64,000 bases of DNA. Source: Mollicutes bacterium (GTDB lineage: Bacteria > Bacillota_I > Bacilli_A > Izemoplasmatales > Izemoplasmataceae). Below are positions 29,832-46,776 of the stretch, in pieces. The notes beneath the pieces were generated by a model. The model was not told where the DNA came from. It ran no database searches and was given only the letters and a program-made list of their open reading frames with translations. The stretch spans positions 1 to 64,000 of the forward strand of contig PULR01000063.1 of assembly GCA_003551005.1 (NCBI GenBank), read 5' to 3'. Position 1 is the first letter of the stretch. Every line of letters starts with the position of its first letter. Made by a program: the position numbers and the translations under genes.

Positions 29832-30296
29832 TCATGCACTTACATACAAGAGCAGGCTGATGAGGGCGCCGACCACGCTAGCCCCGGATGCGGCGTAGAT
29901 GCCTTCGAGACGTTCCCAGGCTACAGAAAGCATGTTTTCCGATCCGGCGATGGTATAGGCGATCTCGATGTTCTCCGGCAGCCGGAACAACAGAATCGCA
30001 CCGACGACAAAAGCCGCGAAGGAGAGAATCGACAGCCGGCTTGAATACAGCGCCGCCGCCCCGCCGATCAGCGGCAGGCCGAAGGCGATCAGGGCGTAGA
30101 GCGAAAACGGCAGTTCGGCGCTGGCGACCGACCCGAGATCGAAGATTTCAACATCGACGATCTCACCACCAAGAAGCACTTCGTAGCCGGCGAAGGAGAG
30201 TCCTTCGTACTCGAGTGCGGGAAGCAGCATCAACAGCGCCACAATAATTCCCACGGCGAACAGCAACCGTCTTAGGGTTCGAGGCAAGAGTTTCAT
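29832..30296 (-). CDS. Hypothetical membrane protein
   Basis: 4-TM-like hydrophobic pattern, MKLLPRTLRRLLFAVGIIVALLML; no family recognised. Confidence 0.7.
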   Translation of the reverse strand: MKLLPRTLRRLLFAVGIIVALLMLLPALEYEGLSFAGYEVLLGGEIVDVEIFDLGSVASAELPFSLYALIAFGLPLIGGAAALYSSRLSILSFAAFVVGAILLFRLPENIEIAYTIAGSENMLSVAWERLEGIYAASGASVVGALISLLLYVSA

Positions 30297-30354
30297 CGTA
30301 TCCCTTCTTTCTTCAAACATCTCCATGATAACAGGTGTCCCTTCGATTGTCGCT

Positions 30355-31308
30355 TCATGCGCTGTATTTCAGGCGTCCCGCCTGCCTCAGCGTGTCACCG
30401 TCAAGGTTTACCAGCCCTTGCGCAAGCGCGTATTCAACCACTTCACGGAATTCTTCCGGGGTGATGCCGCGGGCGATTTCCGGGTATCCTTTCAAACCGA
30501 AGGGCGGACGGTACTGAGCCATGAGGTTGACGTAGGTATCCCGAGTGAGGGTGGAAGCGACCCAGTCGATGAACGCCTTCGCATCTTCGATTCCTTCGGG
30601 CATGATCAGATGCCGGAGCATCAACCCTCGCAGAGCGGTGCCCCTTTCATCGCACTGCAGGATGCCGACCTGCCGGTGCATGGTCTCGACGGCTGCTTTG
30701 GCGACGTCAGGGTAGTGCTTGGCACCGCCGCCGCTGTAGCGCTTTGCGCGAGCGCTATCGAGGTGCTTGACGTCGGCGAGGTAGATATCGACGATTCCTT
30801 CAAGCAGCTTTAATATAGCCGGGCTTTCATAGGCGGAGGTGTTGTAGACGAGGGGCAGGCGGAAACCTGACTTGATGGCCGTTCTGAGGGCGGCAAGGAT
30901 GTCGGGGAGGAAATGGGCCGGTGTGACGAGGTTGACATTCGCGCAGCCTCTTTTCTGCAGCGCAAGCATCATTTCCGCGAGCTCGAAGCTGCTGGTTCTC
31001 CGTCCGCGTCCTTCGTGCGCGATGTCGGCGTTCTGGCAGAACACGCAGCGAAGATTGCAATGGGAAAAGAAGATCGTTCCGGACCCTTTTCTGCCGAGGA
31101 GAGGTTCTTCTTCTCCCGGATGGGGGCCATAGCTGGCGACGACGGCTTTAGCAGGCGCGCCGCAGAAACCGACCTCCCCCTCCCTGCGGTCGACGAGACA
31201 CTCCCGCGGACAAAGCCGGCAGTCTGAGTAATGGTAATCGGCCGCAGTGATGCGCCTGTCAAGCTCGCCGCTATGGAAAAGCGGGAGATAAGCCGGTTCG
31301 TGCTTCAT
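30355..31308 (-). CDS. Radical SAM protein (PflA-like, COG1313 type)
   Basis: CRLCPRECLVDRREGEVGFCGAP and FFSHCNLRCVFCQNADIAH. Confidence 0.9.
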   Translation of the reverse strand: MKHEPAYLPLFHSGELDRRITAADYHYSDCRLCPRECLVDRREGEVGFCGAPAKAVVASYGPHPGEEEPLLGRKGSGTIFFSHCNLRCVFCQNADIAHEGRGRRTSSFELAEMMLALQKRGCANVNLVTPAHFLPDILAALRTAIKSGFRLPLVYNTSAYESPAILKLLEGIVDIYLADVKHLDSARAKRYSGGGAKHYPDVAKAAVETMHRQVGILQCDERGTALRGLMLRHLIMPEGIEDAKAFIDWVASTLTRDTYVNLMAQYRPPFGLKGYPEIARGITPEEFREVVEYALAQGLVNLDGDTLRQAGRLKYSA

Positions 31309-31654
31309 TGGGCTTCACCTCTTGTGTGGGTCAGGAAAGGTTCTTAAAAACAATGTCCGCGCCCCCGGTGATGAATAGCACGACATGAAGATGAGAAACA
31401 TCCTCATATTAGCTAGTATAACACACCAACGTCCTGCAGGAGTTTTCGGTCGGATGAGGGCGTGTAGACGCTCCTTCTCCCCGAAAGACAAAACTAAACT
31501 GCTGTAGTCCCCGTCAGGTTGCCGCGCGGCTATTCACCACGGCTGTGGTCTCGAAACTATTGCACATGCATTTACATCCCCCTTTCAGATGAACTAAAAT
31601 AAACCCAGACTACGAAGACTGACCCAAACTATCCTAACCAGGGGGAATATTCGT

Positions 31655-32164
31655 ATGAAACGCATCGCCCTTCTGCTTGAGAACCAGTTCGACGACAAAG
31701 AACTCATCTATCCTTATTTCCGACTACAGGAGGCAGGTTATCAGGTCGACCTTGTCGGCACCAAGCCGGACACCATCTACAAAAGCAAGCATGGTATGCC
31801 CATGAAAAGCGACCTTGGCGCGGAGGAAGCAAAGTCGGATGACTACGAAGCGCTTGTCATTCCGGGTGGCTTCTCGCCCGATTACATGCGCCGCTCGCAA
31901 GCGACCATCGACTTCGTCAGAACCCTGAACGACCAGAAGAAACCGATCGCCGCCATCTGTCACGCGCCTTGGGTCCTGATCTCCAGCTGCGATCTGCAGG
32001 GCGCACGCCTGACCGGCTTCCCTTCGCTTCAGGTTGACATTGAGAACGCCGGAGCAACGTATATGGACGAAGCAGTCGTCGTCGATGGCAATCTGATCAC
32101 CTCCAGAACCCCCAAGGATCTGCCGGCATTCCTGAAGGCCATCCTCGAGGCTCTCGACACCTAA
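31655..32164 (+). CDS. DJ-1/PfpI family type 1 glutamine amidotransferase-like protein
   Basis: LVIPGGFSPDYMRR ... PIAAICHAPWVLIS nucleophile elbow. Confidence 0.92.
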   Translation: MKRIALLLENQFDDKELIYPYFRLQEAGYQVDLVGTKPDTIYKSKHGMPMKSDLGAEEAKSDDYEALVIPGGFSPDYMRRSQATIDFVRTLNDQKKPIAAICHAPWVLISSCDLQGARLTGFPSLQVDIENAGATYMDEAVVVDGNLITSRTPKDLPAFLKAILEALDT

Positions 32165-32177
32165 TGCGGAATAAACA

Positions 32178-32226
32178 TGAAAAACGGACATCTCCTTCGA
32201 GCCAATCGTCGGAGATGTCCGTTTTG
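32178..32226. terminator. Bidirectional intrinsic terminator
   Basis: aaaacggacatctcc...ggagatgtccgtttt, long perfect stem. Confidence 0.85.
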
Positions 32227-32234
32227 TATATGGT

Positions 32235-32792
32235 CTATCTTTTCTCGAGACGTTCAAGGGAACTCGAAACGTCCACGACCCAGATCATGTGGCTGAACCC
32301 GAGACGCTTGGATTGAACATGAAAGGCCGGCTCTCCGAATAGACGCCGCCAGATCTGCTTCGAGGATTCGATGATCGTATCGAAACAGACCGTCTCGACG
32401 CCTTTCGCTAACAACGTGTTCAAGATGAACAGCAGCAACTCCACTCCGTACCCTTGTTTTTGAAAAACAGGGGCGATGTAGAGCGATCCGATCTCAATCA
32501 TATCTTCAAGCTCCCCGCCGGTCTGTTTCAGGATGCCTTTGTTCGGCGGCCTTCCATAGGCGATCGTCCCCACCGGCTCGTCTTCCTTAAAGGCCAGAAA
32601 ATACCGGGAATCCGGTGAAGTGAACGCCTGGTGAAGCTGGTCCATCTTGAAAGCCAGTTCCTCCTCCGGAGAGAGGAACTCCTTGATGGACTCCTGCTCG
32701 AAGGCGGCTTTGATGGTCCGCCACCACAAGGTGCGGATGCGTTCAGCATCCTCCTGGGTCGCTTCGCGTATGGATAAGCGGGATTCCTTCAT
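32235..32792 (-). CDS. GNAT family N-acetyltransferase
   Basis: EIGSLYIAPVFQKQGYGVELLLFILNTLLAKG. Confidence 0.82.
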   Translation of the reverse strand: MKESRLSIREATQEDAERIRTLWWRTIKAAFEQESIKEFLSPEEELAFKMDQLHQAFTSPDSRYFLAFKEDEPVGTIAYGRPPNKGILKQTGGELEDMIEIGSLYIAPVFQKQGYGVELLLFILNTLLAKGVETVCFDTIIESSKQIWRRLFGEPAFHVQSKRLGFSHMIWVVDVSSSLERLEKR

Positions 32793-32876
32793 GTTGATTC
32801 ACCTCTGATGAGTGGCTCTGATTGCATTAATGTACTTACAGCCCTTCTTGTGTTGCTTTTGAAACACCACCCTCGC

Positions 32877-33191
32877 TCAGAGTTGAACAGAGGGAAGTTT
32901 TTTATAGGTAGAGAACTTTTTTATGTGTGTCGTCTTCTTATCTCCCTCTCGACTCAGTGCGTAATACCATATCTCATGCTTTCCAAGGTCCGGGTCGGTT
33001 TCAGCCTGCTTTCTCGCAGCCAGTAATGCGTCGTAATACTCGTTGGCGCGGGCGCGGTCGAACGTTTCAAAGATGAGCGTCCCATGCCCATGGTTCTTCT
33101 TTTTCAAGGCATGCCACTCGAGACCGGGCTCCCAGTCTAAAGCGGGTGCTGTGTCCACAAGATACTTACGAATTCGCATGATTTCTTTCAT
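32877..33191 (-). CDS. Hypothetical protein
   Basis: 104 aa ORF with SD-like aggaggag upstream; no family recognised. Confidence 0.6.
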   Translation of the reverse strand: MKEIMRIRKYLVDTAPALDWEPGLEWHALKKKNHGHGTLIFETFDRARANEYYDALLAARKQAETDPDLGKHEIWYYALSREGDKKTTHIKKFSTYKKLPSVQL

Positions 33192-35359: not shown

Positions 35360-36841
35360 ATGGCTAGACAGCAGGGTATGAAAAAAATCTCGACGGGATT
35401 GGAAGGCTTGAACGATATCCTCAAGGGCGGTTTCATCCAGGGAAACAGCTACTTGCTCACAGGCGGGCCGGGCACCGGCAAGACAACAGCCGGACTGGAG
35501 TTTTTATGCAACCCTGCACTGGGCCGGCCGAAATCCCTATTCGTCAGTTTCTCTGAACCCGTCGGGAAAATCCGTCGGGATGCTGAAAAAAGAACGTTCA
35601 ATCTAGAAAACGTGGAATTTCTCGATTTGACCCCGAGCCAATCCGACATCAGGAACATGGACTACACCATCTTCGCCCCGGACGAAGTTGAAGCCTCACC
35701 CATCATCAAACGCATCATCGACCGCATCGAGGGTGTAAAGCCCGAGCGCATCTATCTCGATGGTGTCTCACAGCTTAAATACATCTCCGCAGATACATAT
35801 CAGTTCCGCAAACAGCTACTTATCCTCCTTAATGTCATCACCGGGAGTGAAAGCACGCTTCTGCTATCGTCCGAAAGCAGCGAGACCCTCAAGGATGATG
35901 ATCTGCAGTTCATCTGTGATGGTGTCATCAATCTGCTCTTCACAGGAGAAGAACGCGGTATTCGTGTAAAGAAGTTCAGAGGTTCTTCTTTCAAACCCGG
36001 CGTCCACTCCATCACGCTGGGTGATGAGGGGATGGCGATCTTTCCCAAAATCACACCCGAAGACCTCCACAGGATAAGCAAAAAACAGCATCAAACCATC
36101 TCCTCGGGCATCACGGAGATCGACAATCTGCTGCATGGAGGAATTGAACGCGGCACCACCACCGTCATCAGCGGACCCACCGGAGTGGGAAAATCGACCC
36201 TGGCCGCTCAGTTCGCCTATCAAACGGCGGTTCGAGGCGAGCACACCTTGATTTACACTTTCGAAGAAACCGCGGAATCCATTATCACCCGATGTAAAAA
36301 CATCAATATGCCCATTGAGAGCATGTTCAAGCAAGGGAACTTATCCATCGAGAAGATAAATCCGCTGGAATACACCCCTATTCAGTTCGCCCACCTGGTC
36401 AAGGAACATGCGAAGAAGCACAATACCAGCATGGTCGTGCTCGATAGCATCTCAGGCTACGAACTCTCCTTCATCCGTAACATCTACGAGTTCGGCCAGA
36501 AAGAAGAAATGCTGAGAAGCATCCACATCCTGGCCGAACACTTGAAGAGTATGGGAATCAGTCTAATCCTGATCAACGAAGTCCACGACATCACCGGAGA
36601 CTTCAAGGTTTCCGAACATGGCATCAGCTACATCGCCGACAACATTCTCTTCATACGCTATATCGAGGTCGGCGGCCGGATTGAAAGAGCCATCGGGGTC
36701 CTCAAGAAGAGGCTCAGCGATTTCGAAAAGACCTTGCGGGAATTCAACCTGACCGCCGAGGGCATCAACGTCGGCAGACCGCTGAGTGAATTGCGCGGTG
36801 TGCTGAGCGGTGTCCCCGAAATCGTGAAGGCGGATAATTAA
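35360..36841 (+). CDS. KaiC-like/RAD55-family ATPase with two KaiC domains
   Basis: Walker A GGPGTGKTT and SGPTGVGKST; FEE motif; C-term ISYIADNILFIRYIEVGGRIERAIGVLKKR typical of KaiC. Confidence 0.92.
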   Translation: MARQQGMKKISTGLEGLNDILKGGFIQGNSYLLTGGPGTGKTTAGLEFLCNPALGRPKSLFVSFSEPVGKIRRDAEKRTFNLENVEFLDLTPSQSDIRNMDYTIFAPDEVEASPIIKRIIDRIEGVKPERIYLDGVSQLKYISADTYQFRKQLLILLNVITGSESTLLLSSESSETLKDDDLQFICDGVINLLFTGEERGIRVKKFRGSSFKPGVHSITLGDEGMAIFPKITPEDLHRISKKQHQTISSGITEIDNLLHGGIERGTTTVISGPTGVGKSTLAAQFAYQTAVRGEHTLIYTFEETAESIITRCKNINMPIESMFKQGNLSIEKINPLEYTPIQFAHLVKEHAKKHNTSMVVLDSISGYELSFIRNIYEFGQKEEMLRSIHILAEHLKSMGISLILINEVHDITGDFKVSEHGISYIADNILFIRYIEVGGRIERAIGVLKKRLSDFEKTLREFNLTAEGINVGRPLSELRGVLSGVPEIVKADN

Positions 36842-36876
36842 TCCTTACTCAGTAATGTAAGAAACTAAAACAGGTG

Positions 36877-38598
36877 ATGTCTATGCGCACAATCACACTT
36901 TTCCTCGCGAATCAGAATGACAAAGCGCTGATCGGCTCTTTCCTCGAAGACGAATACCGTGTGGTCACGGGTAGCAGAGAAACCCTTGAAGAGAGTCTTT
37001 TGGATGCGGATATGGTGATGTTGGACCACCGGGCGCTTGCCACGCTTCATACAGACATCCAGGCTTTCAAACAAAAATATTTTGCAGATTATCTGCCTGT
37101 GTTGCTGCTCATGGACAAACGGGCCAGCCTTCCCAAACGTATGGCCGCACCTGTCGATGAAATTTTCCGCCTGCCCATTAAAAAAGCGGAATTCGCGCTA
37201 CGGATCAATAATTTGCTGAAAACGAAACGCCTGTTCGATGATTTCAAGCAGGTCCTCGATGACAGTCCTACCGGCATTTGTATCCTGCAGGAAGAGAAAA
37301 TCCGTTATTTCAACCCTTCTTTCCTCCAGATATTCAATGAGGAGCGACAAGACCTGCAGGGACGACCATTCGCAGAACTGCTCGATCAGCCAAGCAGGGA
37401 TAAGCTGCGAAACTTACGCAAAGACGAAAGCGTCCCGAAGCAGCCCTTTGATGTCGAGCTGCGCTCGTCAAAGAGAAGTTGTGAAATCAGCATCTCCCGC
37501 ATCCAGTTCAACGACCAATCCTCTCTGCTCATCAATGCCGTGGACATTACCCGCCGGAAATCCGCCGAGGCTGAACTCCGCCACAAAAGTTACCACGACA
37601 GTCTCACCGGCCTTTACAATCGTTCGTTCCTAGAGACCGAGATGAAAAGGTTGGATACAAGCAGACAGCTCCCCCTGGGCGTCATCATGCTCGATATCAA
37701 CGGACTGAAGCTGATCAACGACTCCTATGGCCATCAAGTCGGAGACGAGATGCTGCAGATGGCCGCTGATGTGTTGAGAGAATCCTGCCGCCAAGAGGAC
37801 ATCATCGCCCGCTGGGGGGGCGATGAATTCGTCATTCTCCTGCCGGCTACACAGGAGCAGGCGCTAAAAAAAATTAGTGAACGGATCCGGTCCAACGCAC
37901 GTACCGCGAGCAGCCATGCCCTACCGCTTTCCATCGCGTTGGGTACAGCATCGAAAACCAGGAAAACCCACAAGCTGAGCGATGTCCTCAATCTCGCCGA
38001 AGACCGGATGTACAAACAGAAACTATCCAAGACCCAAAGCCACAAGAATGCAGTGGTGCTATCCTTCTTGAACGCCCTCAGCGAGAAGAGCTTCGAGACC
38101 CACGAACACACGGAGCGGATGGAAGCCTACGGGGTGAAACTCAGTCGGAAAATCGGCCTCACCGAATTCCAGCTCGACCAGCTAAGACTGCTCATCAACC
38201 TGCATGATATCGGAAAAATCAATCTTCCTGAGAAAATCCTCACAAAACAGGGCCCGCTGACCGACGAAGAGTGGCAACTGATGAAAAAACACCCGGAGAC
38301 CGGGTATCGCATCGCCACCGCCACAGAAGATTTTTCACACGTGGCGGCCGAAATTCTCGCACATCATGAGCACTGGGATGGGTCCGGTTACCCACAAGGT
38401 CTCAAAGGAGACGAAATCCCGCTTCTATCACGAATTTGTGCAATTGTGGACGCTTATGAGGTGATGTTGAACGGGCGGCCCTATAAAAAAGCCATGTCAA
38501 AAGAAGAGATTATCCAGGAATTCAAGCATTCCGCCGGGAAGCAGTTCGACCCCGAGCTCACGGCCCATTTCATCTCCATCATTGAGACAGAGGAGTGA
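36877..38598 (+). CDS. REC-like - PAS - GGDEF - HD-GYP protein
   Basis: REC-like N-term (DADMVMLDHRAL...RLPIKKAEF), ARWGGDEFVILLP, LHDIGKINLPEKI, HHEHWDGSGYPQGL. Confidence 0.9.
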   Translation: MSMRTITLFLANQNDKALIGSFLEDEYRVVTGSRETLEESLLDADMVMLDHRALATLHTDIQAFKQKYFADYLPVLLLMDKRASLPKRMAAPVDEIFRLPIKKAEFALRINNLLKTKRLFDDFKQVLDDSPTGICILQEEKIRYFNPSFLQIFNEERQDLQGRPFAELLDQPSRDKLRNLRKDESVPKQPFDVELRSSKRSCEISISRIQFNDQSSLLINAVDITRRKSAEAELRHKSYHDSLTGLYNRSFLETEMKRLDTSRQLPLGVIMLDINGLKLINDSYGHQVGDEMLQMAADVLRESCRQEDIIARWGGDEFVILLPATQEQALKKISERIRSNARTASSHALPLSIALGTASKTRKTHKLSDVLNLAEDRMYKQKLSKTQSHKNAVVLSFLNALSEKSFETHEHTERMEAYGVKLSRKIGLTEFQLDQLRLLINLHDIGKINLPEKILTKQGPLTDEEWQLMKKHPETGYRIATATEDFSHVAAEILAHHEHWDGSGYPQGLKGDEIPLLSRICAIVDAYEVMLNGRPYKKAMSKEEIIQEFKHSAGKQFDPELTAHFISIIETEE

Positions 38599-38689
38599 AG
38601 ATTAATCGGCATGGCGTGATACTGTCTTCACTTAAAAACGCTTATATTTCCTGATTGGACTTTAGACTGCGGCCCGTTGAATAAGACAA

Positions 38690-38716
38690 AGCCCTCATCT
38701 TTATGGAGGGCTTTAT
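38690..38716 (+). terminator. Intrinsic terminator
   Basis: aaagccctcatctttatggagggctttatta. Confidence 0.8.
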
Positions 38717-40855: not shown

Positions 40856-43006
40856 TCATGCATCGAACGTCGACAAGAAGACCTCGACAAGATCCGGGTC
40901 GAACTGGATGCCGGCACACCGCCTGAACTCTTCTTTGATCGCCTGTTCGCTCATCGCCCGCTTGTAGGGCCGTCCGTAGCTCATGACGTCGTAGGCATCG
41001 GCGATGGCGACAATCCTGGCCAGCAGGGGGATATCCTTCCCGCGGAGGCCTCTGGGATAGCCGTTGCCGTCCCAGTGCTCATGGTGGGCGAGGATGCCTT
41101 GGGCGACATGGGAGAATTCTTCGCTCGCCAGCGCGATGCGGTAGCCGATGACGGGATGTTTCTTGATCATCTCCCACTCCTCTTCACTTAGAGGATCGGC
41201 TTTCTCTAGAACATGACTCGGGATATTGATTTTACCAATATCATGCAGACGCACGAGGATGTCCAGACGGTTGAGCTCGACATCGGGAAGCGCCAGCTTT
41301 TCCGCAATTCCTCTGGCCGCCTCCTGCATGTCGCGGATGTGTCTCGACGTCTCGGGACTGATTTCCCCAAGCGCGCCGACGATGGTGTTGAGGGTTTCAC
41401 TCTTCGAACTGCGGCTTTCCGTCATTTTATGCGTGTACATGGTATCCTCGGCCATTTTCAATACATCGGAGAGCGTCTGTTCAGTAGTTTCCTTGCTCGC
41501 ATAACCGACCGCCAGAGATAGCGGAAGGTTTTCGACGTAGACTTTTTCTCCCCGTGTCTTCAAACGCTGACAAAGAGCCTGAGTCACTTCCAGCGTTGTC
41601 CCGGGAAGCAGCACGATGAATTCATCCCCGCCCCAGCGCACGACAATATCCCGCTCACGGGAACATGCCTTCAGAATCTCGGCCGTCCGCTTGAGCATCT
41701 CATCACCGGTGGCATGACCGTAGGTATCGTTCGCGAGCTTGAGGCCGTTCACATCGACCATCACCAGACTCAAGGGCAGCTGAGTCGGTGTGTCGAGTTG
41801 GTCGATGGTCTCTTCGAAATAGCGTCGGTTCGGCAGCCCGGTCAGGAAATCATGCGTGCTCATATGGCGGATTTTCTTCTCCATTCGCTTGCGATGGGTG
41901 ATATCCGTGACCAAGCCGAGAATGTAGTCCTGGTTGTAAAAGGAAACCTTCCCTTTGCGGACCTCCACCGGGAACACTGTGCCATCCTTGCGGCGATATT
42001 CAGTCTCGATGGTATGTGAATCACCGAGCGACCATTGTCGCCAGTATTCTTTGATCTTGGACGGTTCGGGGTTCGCCGTTGAGGACTCCGGGTGCAGATC
42101 GAAGACCGTGCGCGCCGTCAATTCCGTTTTCGAGTACCCTGTCTGCCGGGCGGCCTCCCGGTTGACTTCCAGGATGCTGCCATCGAGGTCGTGCAGATAG
42201 ACCGCATCCATGGATTGTTCGATTAGGGCCCGGTATTTCTCTTCGGATCGTTTCAAGTCGGCTTCCATTTGTTTGCGCTGGGTGATATCTCGTGCCAGTG
42301 ACAGTATGAAGTCCCGGTTGTCAATGACGACCTTCTTGGCCCGAATCTCTACTGGAAATACGTCGCCATGCTTCCGCTGATGTTCGGCTTCGAGGGTCTT
42401 GGTCTCCCCGGTTTTCCAGGTTCGCCACTGCTTCAAAATAGCTTCTCTTTGTTGGTTGACGGGTGAAGTTTGCGGGTGCAGATCAAGGACGCTGCGCTCT
42501 AAGAGTTCGCTCTCGGAAAAGCCACTCTGTACAATCGCCTCTTGATTGACTTCCACAATACGCCCGTTCAGGTCGTGAAGATACACGCCGTCCATGGTTT
42601 GTTCAATCAGCGCCCGATATTTCGACAACGATTGCTTGAGGGCGTGCTCGTCCTGCTTGCGCCTGGAAATGTCGCAAATCCGCTCCACGACCCACTCGAC
42701 GGTCTGTTCCTCGTTCGCGAGAGGGGTCAGAGTCGCTTCAAACCAATGACCGGCGTCGGTCTGATACTCTTCCTGGATTGACGTGGCCGATTCGAACACC
42801 TGCCGGATGCGGTCTTTGACGTGCTGCTTTTGCAGGCGGTCCGCATCTACGGGGGATGAGAGTGGCCGCGCCGGCTCCCCGCTGGAATCGCCCTGATGAA
42901 AAACATGGTCATTCGCATAGACCATGTTTCCTTCGGCATCATAGACAAACACCCATTCATCCATGGAATCCAGCAACCGTTGAAACCAGAAGTGTGACAT
43001 GAACAT
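40856..43006 (-). CDS. Multi-PAS - GGDEF - HD-GYP protein
   Basis: PAS/PAC repeats (MDGVYLHDLNGRIVEVNQEA, MDAVYLHDLDGSILEVNREA), VRWGGDEFIVLLP, HDIGKINIPSHVL, HHEHWDGNGYPRGL; start after AAAGGAG. Confidence 0.92.
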   Translation of the reverse strand: MFMSHFWFQRLLDSMDEWVFVYDAEGNMVYANDHVFHQGDSSGEPARPLSSPVDADRLQKQHVKDRIRQVFESATSIQEEYQTDAGHWFEATLTPLANEEQTVEWVVERICDISRRKQDEHALKQSLSKYRALIEQTMDGVYLHDLNGRIVEVNQEAIVQSGFSESELLERSVLDLHPQTSPVNQQREAILKQWRTWKTGETKTLEAEHQRKHGDVFPVEIRAKKVVIDNRDFILSLARDITQRKQMEADLKRSEEKYRALIEQSMDAVYLHDLDGSILEVNREAARQTGYSKTELTARTVFDLHPESSTANPEPSKIKEYWRQWSLGDSHTIETEYRRKDGTVFPVEVRKGKVSFYNQDYILGLVTDITHRKRMEKKIRHMSTHDFLTGLPNRRYFEETIDQLDTPTQLPLSLVMVDVNGLKLANDTYGHATGDEMLKRTAEILKACSRERDIVVRWGGDEFIVLLPGTTLEVTQALCQRLKTRGEKVYVENLPLSLAVGYASKETTEQTLSDVLKMAEDTMYTHKMTESRSSKSETLNTIVGALGEISPETSRHIRDMQEAARGIAEKLALPDVELNRLDILVRLHDIGKINIPSHVLEKADPLSEEEWEMIKKHPVIGYRIALASEEFSHVAQGILAHHEHWDGNGYPRGLRGKDIPLLARIVAIADAYDVMSYGRPYKRAMSEQAIKEEFRRCAGIQFDPDLVEVFLSTFDA

Positions 43007-43267
43007 TCTCCTTTGCGCCAGGGCCCGTAGACGAGACACCCGCTGAAAAGCACCTATCGGCCCTTGCTTCAGGACCTGCGCTTCGCACCACCTAGACACG
43101 CGGCAACCAGCGTTTGATGATGCCTGCATGGTTCCCCCGGGGGGTTGCTGCGACCAGTGGTAAGAATAAATATAGGAGAATAGTTTATCATACTTTCTGT
43201 GTGAACCGCAAAAAACATATATGTGCTGTCCGTTTGTTTTCCCTGCTACAAACAACGCTCATAAAAA

Positions 43268-43310
43268 AATCCACACCCCCTCAGCGCATGACGGTTGAGG
43301 GGGTGTGGAT
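43268..43310 (-). terminator. Intrinsic terminator downstream of GGDEF gene
   Basis: atccacaccccctca...tgagggggtgtggat 15-bp stem, then TTTTTTT on the minus strand. Confidence 0.85.
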
Positions 43311-43401
43311 TGAGGGGATCTTTCTTCGCTGACCCACCTACCTTTGCGGAAGTGCTTTCGAGTCTTCCCCGCAAGCGCTCCTGTAAAGGAGGCATGGGAG
43401 C

Positions 43402-44517
43402 TCACACAGCGTAATTTTGGCTGCCAATTCGTGAACGATCATCTTTCTGCTGGTACATGCCCCTCTCGGCCATCTCGATCAAAGCCGGCAGCGGTTCTCC
43501 TTTCTCCCGGATCGCCACGCCCACGGCGAACGAGAAGGGGGCTGGGTCCTCGCCTATTTCCGAGGAGTACCGGGAGAGCTGCTCGAGAAAGGCATCGTTC
43601 GCTTCCTTCTGTGCATGCGGCCGGACAAGGACGAATTCGTCGCCGCCATAGCGGACGAGAAGATCGCCTTCTTCGAGCAGACTGTTGAGGATTTCCGCAG
43701 TCCTTGCCAAAAGCTGGTCTCCCACACGATGGCCATACGTGTCGTTGATCTCCTTGAGATTGTTCAGATCGATGAACATCACCGTGCAGGCTTGCTCGTA
43801 ATCTTCGTAGGCAGGCTGGATGTATTCTTCAAGATACGCCCGGTTCTTCAATCCGGTCAGACGGTCGTGGAAGCTGAGATACTGCAAGCGTTGCTTTTCC
43901 AGCTGCTCTTTATGGTTTTCCCTGACGAAATGCATATAGAGCATGCTCACACTCACCCCGAGACCCAGGGTCGCGGTGAGGCTCAACCCATAGGGAATGT
44001 AGAGCGGAGAAGATACAATGAGGGGAAAGAATGCCAAATACACAGCGTAGAGGAGATGGAACACACCGACGGCGCGCATCCCGCCTTCAAACCCCCTGAG
44101 CAGTTCCACCCCCGAAACACCGAAGAAGAACGCCGAGAAGGTGAAGACCATCGATGCAAAGATGGAAAGGGGATAATCAAACAGCGGGTGGATGAAGACA
44201 AGGACAAAGAAAGCAAACAGGACTCCACTCCAGATTCTAAGGAAAGACTTTTCACCGTAGGCGTATACCCCTTTTTGAAAGAAGTAACCAGCGGCGATGA
44301 TGCCGAGCGAGAACAGATATCCGAATACCGAATTCTCTGTAGCAAGCGCCAGGTAGAAAGCCCCATAGGAAAACAGCAGCAACGTCCACGTGATCAGCCA
44401 TTCACTCAGATAGCGTCGTCGGGATTGACGATAGTAATAAAACACTACGCCCCACATGACTAGCGCTCCGGCAAAGAAAAAGGCTGTGACAATCTCCAAT
44501 AGCGCGGTAGTCTCCAT
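43402..44517 (-). CDS. Membrane-anchored GGDEF diguanylate cyclase
   Basis: N-terminal TM array; HDRLTGLKNRAYLEEYI ... LVRYGGDEFVLVRP. Confidence 0.9.
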   Translation of the reverse strand: METTALLEIVTAFFFAGALVMWGVVFYYYRQSRRRYLSEWLITWTLLLFSYGAFYLALATENSVFGYLFSLGIIAAGYFFQKGVYAYGEKSFLRIWSGVLFAFFVLVFIHPLFDYPLSIFASMVFTFSAFFFGVSGVELLRGFEGGMRAVGVFHLLYAVYLAFFPLIVSSPLYIPYGLSLTATLGLGVSVSMLYMHFVRENHKEQLEKQRLQYLSFHDRLTGLKNRAYLEEYIQPAYEDYEQACTVMFIDLNNLKEINDTYGHRVGDQLLARTAEILNSLLEEGDLLVRYGGDEFVLVRPHAQKEANDAFLEQLSRYSSEIGEDPAPFSFAVGVAIREKGEPLPALIEMAERGMYQQKDDRSRIGSQNYAV

Positions 44518-44914
44518 AGCTCCCACTCCCCCGTGGAAGAATTACAGACAGTTAATCATTAAAGTATAAACGAAATATCGAAAAAGTTCAAACACTCCCG
44601 GACCCAGGGATGGAATAAGACAGATTACAGCATCCGATGGCGGATTTCCCTCTCTAGCTATGCACTGAGTATCCCTATTAAAAAGCTGAGCCCCCGCTTG
44701 CATGCGAACGCCCAGCTTATTAGGAAATTCCTTCAGAAAACCATTAGCAACTTTGAGGAACAAAAATACGCGGATGGCAAACGCGCAGGCAGACGAATTC
44801 GTTCTCCCGGTCGTGATTGGATGTCAGTCCGTTTCGTCACAACAAAAGGCGCTGATTAGCGGTCTACTCACGTAACGTTGAATGAAATGAACCATGCCTA
44901 GAGCGTGGCCGGAT

Positions 44915-46597
44915 TCACATCTCGCCGCGAAGATACGACTCGGCATCCATAAGTTGGGGGGAAGCTTGACTGCGCAGCCAATGTTTCAAGGCTCTGAACT
45001 CCATAGGTTTCGCGAAATAATAGCCCTGAACCCCATCAAAGCCAAGTTCATCGACCGTCTGCAACATGGTTTCGTCTTCGACACCCTCAGCAACCACCCT
45101 CATGCCCAGGTCCTTGGCCAGACGCACCGCCGCGCGCACGATGGAATAAACCCGTTCATCATCCATCATCTTCCAGATGAAATGCTGATCGACTTTCAGT
45201 GTATCCGCCTCGAATGCTCCCAGGTAATAAAGCGAAGAATGGCCCTTGCCGAAATCATCGATCGCGGTGCCTATACCGTGCGACTGCAACGTCGAAAGCT
45301 GCCGTTTGGCGGCCTCCGGATTCTGCATCAACGCGGTTTCAGTAAGCTCGACCTTGAGGCGTGAAGGGGCGATGCCTTTTGTCTCGAGCGCTTTGGGCAG
45401 ACGTTCGAGAAACTTTCCGTCATAAATATTTTTTGCGGATACATTGATGGAAAAGTACACATCATCCCACTGATTCGGGAAAGCGTCGATCACTGTCAAG
45501 ACTCTTTGCAATAGCCACTCGGTGAATGTGTGTATCAATTCGGTTTTTTCAATCAGGGGGATGAAACGTCCCGGTGAAATTTTTCCTTTTTCAGGATGCT
45601 GCCAGCGTACGAGCGCCTCCAAACCGACCAAAGTGGCGCCTTCCGGACTGAGCTGCGGCTGGAAGGTAATATAAAGCTCGTCATTCTCAAGGGCGCTAGA
45701 AAATCCGGAGAGCAGTTCATAATCCTCCTGCTGCTTATCAAGTTCTAGGTCCCGTATGATATAGAAGGTGCGCAGCTTGAAGGCGATGTTGCTGCGGGCG
45801 GTTGGCGTATTGAAATCCGTGGCATAGAATCGCGACTCACTCGGGGTCTTCGCTTCAGCCCCCAGATGGATAGCCACATAGAGCGGTATGCCGTGAACAT
45901 CCCATTCATTGTCCAACACTGCTTGTAGGTCCTCTACATCCTTTTCCAATCCACTTGAGGGCATGGCAATCCAGAACTTATCCGAATCCGACTGCACCAC
46001 GAAACCCTTCTTGCCAAGATTATCGATAAGGACATCATACAGCTTGCGCAACAAATCCCGATACACTCCGATGCCGAGCATGTCGACGATGGATTGCTTG
46101 TTGCCGATCAACACGCTCGTTAACGTATACGTGTGATTTATTTTAGGCGTGAAAAACCTCAAGGCATTGATGTCGGGAATATCGGTCAGCTGGTTCCTCG
46201 TCCTGAGTTGATGAATGGTCCGTGACGAAGCGCGAAGCCTTGTTGCGACGTAACCACTGAACGCACCGACTCCGGCAAATAGGACAAGCCGCAGGATGGC
46301 GTCCACAACCATCACGAATGTTCCGTCCAGTGGGTCGATGATAGCCAGAAGCGGAGCCAGCATCACCCCGGCTAATGCTCCCATGAAAGCCCCCCATCTT
46401 ACACCTAGTGCTAATCCGGAAATCACCAGCGGGAGGAATACCACATAACCATAAAGGTAACGGACATTCTGAGCAGCGTTTGCCAGAATATAGACCAAAA
46501 CGCTAATCAGGATAACGGTGACTAAAGAAACCAGAAAACGGTGACGATAAATAAGAGCAATCCAATTCGGAATTCGTTTGGAAACAGGAAGACGCAT
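44915..46597 (-). CDS. Membrane-anchored EAL phosphodiesterase with degenerate GGDEF domain
   Basis: LVGLEALVRWQHPEKG, IDDFGKGHSSLYYL, TLKVDQHFI; no GGDEF motif in the middle domain; start at an internal Met with SD aaggaggga. Confidence 0.9.
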   Translation of the reverse strand: MRLPVSKRIPNWIALIYRHRFLVSLVTVILISVLVYILANAAQNVRYLYGYVVFLPLVISGLALGVRWGAFMGALAGVMLAPLLAIIDPLDGTFVMVVDAILRLVLFAGVGAFSGYVATRLRASSRTIHQLRTRNQLTDIPDINALRFFTPKINHTYTLTSVLIGNKQSIVDMLGIGVYRDLLRKLYDVLIDNLGKKGFVVQSDSDKFWIAMPSSGLEKDVEDLQAVLDNEWDVHGIPLYVAIHLGAEAKTPSESRFYATDFNTPTARSNIAFKLRTFYIIRDLELDKQQEDYELLSGFSSALENDELYITFQPQLSPEGATLVGLEALVRWQHPEKGKISPGRFIPLIEKTELIHTFTEWLLQRVLTVIDAFPNQWDDVYFSINVSAKNIYDGKFLERLPKALETKGIAPSRLKVELTETALMQNPEAAKRQLSTLQSHGIGTAIDDFGKGHSSLYYLGAFEADTLKVDQHFIWKMMDDERVYSIVRAAVRLAKDLGMRVVAEGVEDETMLQTVDELGFDGVQGYYFAKPMEFRALKHWLRSQASPQLMDAESYLRGEM

Positions 46598-46776
46598 TCC
46601 TTGGTTCCCTCCTTGAGATGGGGTAATCATCGATGTCCCTTCAAGGAAACTCAAATACTAGATGGTGAGGAAGTTCCTGTTGATGAAAGCAAACCCCAAT
46701 TAAGGTTTTCATTTTTTTTATTATAGCAACAGCACTTGTGAAACGCCAACTGAAATGCAACTTGTGTAGCTATTGA

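Follow-up and report, generated by a model that had tools for sequence, protein, structure and literature searches.

A KaiC-Like ATPase Gene Paired with the Gene of a Predicted Cyclic-di-GMP Enzyme in Mollicutes-Type Bacteria

Results and Discussion

A KaiC-type ATPase probably controls cyclic-di-GMP (c-di-GMP) in the uncultured, small-genome bacteria studied here, a reading that we base on genome sequences, because the pairing of kaiC with a GGDEF-HD-GYP gene recurs in every relative that has KaiC. In the window (the whole analysed stretch of DNA, 64,000 nucleotides), kaiC is followed by the gene of a partner protein that is predicted to be both maker and destroyer of c-di-GMP. Both genes lie where the first-pass annotation had placed them, and they reveal the following features:

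35360..36841, plus strand: KaiC-like two-domain ATPase, 493 aa, KaiB-less "SY" type (PF06745 twice)
about 35387-36049, plus strand: KaiC CI domain (PF06745)
about 36101-36778, plus strand: KaiC CII domain (PF06745)
36626..36631, plus strand: S423-Y424, which aligns with S431-T432 of clock KaiC (27-protein alignment)
36842..36882, plus strand: 41-bp spacer with a ribosome-binding-like site, AGGTG, at 36872-36876 (fold z-score 0.0)
36883..38598, plus strand: pseudo-receiver-PAS-GGDEF-HD-GYP protein, 571 aa from ATG 36883 (domain and motif matches)
36883..37236, plus strand: N-terminal pseudo-receiver, an unannotated family common to KaiC-neighbouring histidine kinases (profile-profile comparison)
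37240..37551, plus strand: PAS domain (PF00989, PF13426, PF13188)
37591..38034, plus strand: GGDEF domain, RWGGDEF with RxxD I-site (PF00990, E 1.1e-38 and 7.8e-40)
38071..38559, plus strand: HD-GYP domain, HDIGK and HHEHWDGSGYP (PF13487, HD_5, E 5.4e-36)
38688..38714, plus strand: terminator-like hairpin, 9-bp stem, 9-nt loop, then ATTATTA (-13.7 kcal/mol, z -2.5)

The first-pass annotation had described a gap of 35 bp without a visible terminator. The spacer is indeed short, but it measures 41 bp: ATG 36883 is the likelier start of the partner gene, given the AGGTG at 36872-36876 and the alignment with the start of an orthologue. As to the terminator, the description stands. A pattern scan (loop limit 8) listed none on the plus strand between the two genes, and the spacer holds no terminator-like structure (fold z-score 0.0); the hairpin at 38688-38714 is located 3' of the partner gene. 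An assembly artefact as the source of the pair is ruled out, since both genes lie on one contig and the pair is repeated in independent assemblies. A chance neighbourhood is likewise rejected, as the adjacency is repeated in four other genomes. Kai protein and enzyme would form a single signalling unit of two genes, which is part of an overall explanation that we favour with modest confidence.

A KaiB-Less KaiC of the SY Type

The window protein carries two PF06745 domains (E 6.7e-67, Pfam) with Walker A and B motifs, as is characteristic of the KaiC superfamily of ATPases; its Walker A sequences read GGPGTGKTT and GPTGVGKSTL. The top matches of a PDB search are KaiC proteins (E 1e-53). With both P-loops and the FEE motif of CII in place, the protein is apparently competent as a two-ring-type ATPase.

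A clock function is unsupported for this KaiC. The lack of a nearby kaiB in the first-pass annotation extends further, as KaiB is missing from the window's whole genome (best E 0.37). The S431/T432 phosphorylation dyad of clock KaiC is lacking and its place is taken by S423/Y424. Finally, the protein falls short of the NCBIfam cut-offs for clock KaiC (PRK09302, 246 vs 408 bits; TIGR02655, 149 vs 546 bits). A 24-h clock is therefore not implied. KaiA has been reported from cyanobacteria only (PMC5520375). In the alignment of 27 KaiC proteins, the phospho-site of the KaiB-less clade is mostly S/Y or T/Y, and SY/TY sites have been described for KaiB-less KaiC types (PMC3164672). Among the relatives discussed below, G062 has S/H at this dyad and both G006 and G080 have S/S, as compared with S/Y in the window.

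Distribution of the Pair within the Order

Besides 90 genomes of the order, we examined samples of its class (395 genomes) and its phylum (392 genomes). KaiC is rare in the order: five of the 90 genomes carry it, namely the window's genome, G001, G062, G006, and G080, which are draft assemblies of 64-97% completeness. No further KaiC was found in the class and phylum samples. A scan of viral contigs yielded nothing beyond two weak fragments, and a wider scan of genome contigs returned just the G001 contig and weak archaeal KaiC fragments. In all five kaiC-bearing genomes, a GGDEF-HD-GYP gene abuts kaiC. An adjacency confined to this strain would have counted against the reading of the first-pass annotation; the pair is also present in G001 and G062, and a convergent DGC-KaiC-KaiB arrangement occurs in G006 and G080.

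Two architectures can be distinguished. Architecture A, found in the window, G001, and G062, consists of a KaiB-less SY-type KaiC followed by a pseudo-receiver-PAS-GGDEF-HD-GYP protein. The KaiC of G001 is 72% identical to that of the window, gene order is the same with a spacer of 34 bp, and the GGDEF motif and I-site of its enzyme are intact. The surroundings are different: the G001 pair lies beside hppA, cmk, rpsA, and der, whereas the genes that flank the window's pair on its left are found in G001 on a separate contig without kaiC. In G062, whose KaiC shares 42% identity with that of the window, a 133-aa receiver gene is inserted between kaiC and the enzyme gene and overlaps with both by a few bases; the GGDEF motif of this enzyme is degenerate (GGGQF), its HD-GYP domain is intact.

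Architecture B, found in G006 and G080, consists of a membrane GGDEF-HD-GYP protein, then a clock-type KaiC, then KaiB (Pfam KaiB, 79 and 60 bits, respectively):

L009 3799-4110, minus strand: KaiB gene, a short gene directly after kaiC (G006)
L019 9100-9456, plus strand: KaiB gene, a short gene directly after kaiC (G080)

At the G080 locus, a GGDEF gene and the gene of a B12-binding protein that contains a Wx9EH motif (L019 3804-5871, minus strand) are divergent from the DGC-KaiC-KaiB unit. The B12-binding protein is closest in the PDB to the cobalamin-binding 8j2x/8j2w and to the GGDEF-domain cobalamin protein 8j2y. Together with the GGDEF gene, it may supply the Kai/c-di-GMP unit with a light signal.

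The two architectures correspond to two KaiC lineages. In a tree of 27 KaiC proteins, those of the window, G001, and G062 group with haloarchaeal and Acaryochloris KaiC-like proteins (support 99/99), while those of G006 and G080 group with the kaiB-linked KaiC of Cereibacter and pass PRK09302 (542 and 538 bits). The closest relatives of the window's KaiC are G001 and then the haloarchaeal and Acaryochloris proteins at 36-45% identity. The AU test rejects a common KaiC ancestry of all five pairs (p 6e-68). It does not reject a clade of the window, G001, and G062 (p 0.21), although the free tree sets G062 with Acaryochloris. Tree, AU test, and NCBIfam scores consequently indicate that a GGDEF-HD-GYP gene became the neighbour of kaiC at least two times in the order. 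Three kaiC lineages with such a neighbour are separable, and we estimate the chance of such a neighbour at about 1% per lineage (about five GGDEF-HD-GYP genes, with the gene total estimated at 1,250).

The Partner Enzyme and its Pseudo-Receiver

All catalytic motifs are present in the partner protein (RWGGDEF; the RxxD I-site, RQED; HDIGK; HHEHWDGSGYP), and domain matches agree with the PAS domain and the intact-looking GGDEF and HD-GYP domains seen in the first pass. The predicted enzyme thus combines the motif and domain of a GGDEF diguanylate cyclase with those of an HD-GYP phosphodiesterase (HD and HHExxDGxGYP within an HD_5 domain); the latter domain matches the HD-GYP of PDB 4mcw with E 4.5e-40.

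The degenerate GGDEF in G062 would limit the output there to breakdown, and for this reason HD-GYP output may be the conserved or essential part. Along this line, KaiC could be a sensor of osmotic, oxidative, or energy state that acts mainly through c-di-GMP degradation by HD-GYP and less as a bifunctional switch. Work on Pseudomonas has linked KaiC-like proteins to biofilm and to resistance against stress (Terrettaz 2022, as cited), and G062 retains its HD-GYP domain. Both the window and G001 keep an intact GGDEF motif and I-site, which speaks against a mainly degradative output. We regard this reading as a tentative one, and it is more a refinement of the favoured explanation than a rival.

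For residues 1-118 of the partner, no Pfam match at all was found, Response_reg included. The Asp of beta3 (D48) is retained, whereas the acidic pair, the T, and the Lys are missing; D48 is thus all that is kept of the residue set of a functional receiver (DD, D, T/S, K). What had been called a REC-like domain is receiver-like indeed, but has to be addressed as a pseudo-receiver. The same loss of Lys and retention of Asp is observed in 13 of 13 sequences, including ten KaiC-neighbouring kinases from haloarchaea and Acaryochloris. AlphaFold gave a pLDDT of 44 for the whole partner and 41 for the pseudo-receiver alone, the alignment depth being too small for usable models.

Profile-profile comparison (hhalign) relates the pseudo-receiver to the N-termini of the haloarchaeal and Acaryochloris histidine kinases next to kaiC (probability 99.6), as opposed to stand-alone KaiC-linked receivers (probability 24). 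The N-terminus of the alpha- and betaproteobacterial (rhizobial-type) KaiC-linked kinases compared here gave no match (probability 7). HMM scores between the pseudo-receiver set and the kinase N-terminus set range from 34 to 81 bits, compared to a maximum of 23-33 for ordinary receivers. Within the order, the pseudo-receiver is present in three of 90 genomes, exactly those with the KaiC of architecture A, not counting three additional matches (E about 1e-4) that resemble ordinary receivers; among the 395 sampled genomes of the class, it was found nowhere else. The tie of the family to kaiC is not strict, as two Haladaptatus loci encode the pseudo-receiver with no adjacent kaiC. The stand-alone receiver of G062 scores 57 bits against the profile of haloarchaeal KaiC-linked receivers (ordinary receivers, maximum 16). 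Both homologies indicate that KaiC, receiver, and pseudo-receiver effector co-recur in two domains of life. Since the pseudo-receiver is homologous to the kinase N-termini beside the closest KaiC relatives, the window's pair resembles a known KaiC/two-component pair in which a c-di-GMP output has taken the place of the kinase.

The catalytic half has a different affinity. In a tree, the GGDEF-HD-GYP part is nearest to the G001 orthologue and then to a resident paralogue (support 90/93), which sits 2.3 kb from the partner gene. Judging from this grouping, a KaiC/pseudo-receiver module appears to have arrived by transfer and to have been fused to a GGDEF-HD-GYP half of local origin. The paralogue is one of three more c-di-GMP genes that form a small cluster at 40856-46654, within 9 kb of the pair:

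40856-43255, minus strand: PAS-PAS-PAS-GGDEF-HD-GYP
43402-44526, minus strand: membrane GGDEF
44915-46654, minus strand: EAL with degenerate GGDEF

In this neighbourhood, the pair might be co-located without physical coupling, as part of a signalling neighbourhood or mobile cassette, with a pseudo-receiver serving for dimerisation only, as in PleD. The three additional genes, the proximity of the closest paralogue, and the dimerisation mediated by PleD-type pseudo-receivers (PMC12632262) fit such a scenario. Yet the pair is found amid other surroundings in G001, G062, G006, and G080, and two unrelated KaiC lineages gained the same type of neighbour, so that we consider mere co-location unlikely.

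The window's genome (G000; 1.35 Mb, 65 contigs) contains 15 GGDEF matches and no match to a PilZ receptor. Receivers are scarce, with two matches only in a PF00072 scan. The top one, G000:C60:581-904 (L057), has an in-frame TAG and is located ahead of a histidine kinase ORF. The other (L058, contig C49 of G000, 1068-2042) is a receiver with a HalX-like domain; C49 is probably a haloarchaeal contaminant of the draft genome, as its neighbouring proteins are acidic and haloarchaeal-looking. In the window itself, GC content steps at about 30000-33000: the left part of the contig has 56-62% and the right part 51-53%.

Proposed Control of c-di-GMP by KaiC

The explanation that we find rather more probable than its negation is that KaiC, as part of one unit, binds the pseudo-receiver and sets c-di-GMP synthesis and breakdown by the partner. 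In detail, the KaiC hexamer would bind the N-terminal pseudo-receiver in a nucleotide- or phosphorylation-dependent state, and this binding would decide jointly with the PAS signal whether c-di-GMP is made or broken down. The input would be protein binding, which is likely since the pseudo-receiver lacks phosphotransfer residues; a phosphorelay was dismissed as first choice on account of this missing chemistry and the two PF00072 matches in the genome. In evolutionary terms, a module of KaiC and a pseudo-receiver kinase would have exchanged its histidine-kinase output for a GGDEF-HD-GYP half resembling the resident paralogues. The physical coupling of KaiC and enzyme, and its direction, are what we infer.

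Several observations argue for this explanation. The pairing in five of five genomes, across three lineages, is set against the low chance expectation per lineage. The pseudo-receiver tracks the KaiC of architecture A in the order and the class sample, and matches the kinase N-termini next to kaiC. The pair is kept in G001 amid other genes, and in G062 kaiC, receiver, and effector overlap, the receiver itself being of the haloarchaeal KaiC-linked kind. Receivers are scarce in the window's genome, one of the two being a likely contaminant. Elsewhere, a receiver or histidine-kinase gene lies beside 20 of 22 annotated plasmid KaiC genes, and the related KaiC/HK pair of Ramlibacter is co-transcribed (PMC3164672). 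The pseudo-receivers away from kaiC in haloarchaea, the lack of a PilZ match, and the c-di-GMP cluster, by which clustering by theme could have brought the genes together, count against it.

Conversely, the enzyme or c-di-GMP itself might feed environmental input into KaiC, which then acts elsewhere, e.g., via a separate receiver as seen in G062. The enzyme gene stands first in the architecture B loci, ahead of kaiC and kaiB, and in Synechococcus changes in c-di-GMP alter the KaiC clock in its period, phase, and amplitude via unidentified factors (PMC13001216). Against this direction, the KaiC-associated pseudo-receiver occupies the N-terminal input position of the partner, as in the kinases interpreted as outputs of KaiC, and no other KaiC target is visible within the unit. 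We hold the reverse direction to be unlikely, but a serious alternative in view of the effect in Synechococcus.

A broader reading, possible but doubtful in our judgement, is that, within one order of small-genome bacteria, KaiC proteins of two unrelated lineages each gained a direct link to a GGDEF-HD-GYP enzyme, Kai acting as timer or state sensor with c-di-GMP as its immediate output and no phosphorelay. Taken jointly and with the same reserve, the KaiB-less archaeal-type hub would be wired via the transferred pseudo-receiver, and the clock-type KaiC-KaiB via a membrane-bound enzyme, once beside a predicted cobalamin-type light sensor that has a GGDEF gene of its own.

The pair touches the question of the role of KaiC homologues outside cyanobacteria, and in cyanobacteria an effect of c-di-GMP on the clock has recently come to light (PMC13001216). 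The two-gene unit narrows this question to two proteins with a directly measurable c-di-GMP output, and the unnamed pseudo-receiver is a concrete candidate for a KaiC-binding surface.

Comparison with Known Systems

That kaiC lies beside kinase, receiver, or GGDEF/EAL genes is already known from a genome paper of 2011, in which a KaiC-binding N-terminal domain was also proposed (PMC3164672). The window's pair has the characteristics of the class described there, a KaiB-less SY/TY KaiC adjoining a REC, HK, or GGDEF gene as dedicated partner. In the literature that we searched, no work was found to link KaiC with an adjacent HD-GYP protein; the two terms occurred together in just two papers, the c-di-GMP/clock study (PMC13001216) and a review. 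None of the 22 plasmid KaiC genes inspected has a GGDEF neighbour. This survey of neighbours covered the order, the class and phylum samples, and plasmid KaiC; pseudo-receiver-GGDEF fusions are possible in Cyanobacteria, Chloroflexota, and proteobacterial chromosomes.

The KaiC and Nt_HK of Ramlibacter (Rta_04330/Rta_04340, the "second kaiC context" of PMC3164672) share with the window the operon arrangement, the KaiB-less SY/TY KaiC, and, after KaiC, a signalling protein that begins with a dedicated receiver-like region. Their output is a histidine kinase instead of PAS-GGDEF-HD-GYP, and the KaiC-linked N-terminus of the alpha- and betaproteobacterial kinases compared here gave no profile match to the window's.

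The haloarchaeal hubs with REC or PAS-HK neighbours contain the closest KaiC relatives outside the order and a homologous pseudo-receiver in the neighbouring HK; the stand-alone receiver is common to them and G062. Makarova, Galperin and Koonin proposed the archaeal KaiC-like hubs in 2017 (cited in PMC5847659). Their outputs are HK or stand-alone receivers, in contrast to c-di-GMP in the window, and GGDEF is near-absent from Archaea (PMC5847659).

In the kaiBC loci with a GGDEF/EAL neighbour (the "first kaiC context" of PMC3164672), a Kai protein likewise adjoins a c-di-GMP enzyme, and the architecture B loci also share KaiB with them. The enzyme has HD-GYP here and EAL there, and architecture A, as in the window, differs further by the lack of KaiB and a KaiC that is not of clock type by NCBIfam. 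Response regulators of the PleD/WspR type (REC-GGDEF) also place a receiver-like domain ahead of GGDEF, but the window's protein is distinguished from them by the absence of phosphoacceptor chemistry, the C-terminal HD-GYP, and its KaiC partner. Compared with all these systems, a predicted GGDEF-HD-GYP output beside KaiC, in two KaiC lineages and in Mollicutes-type bacteria, appears to be new, as does a partner whose putative input domain is homologous to that of KaiC-neighbouring kinases.
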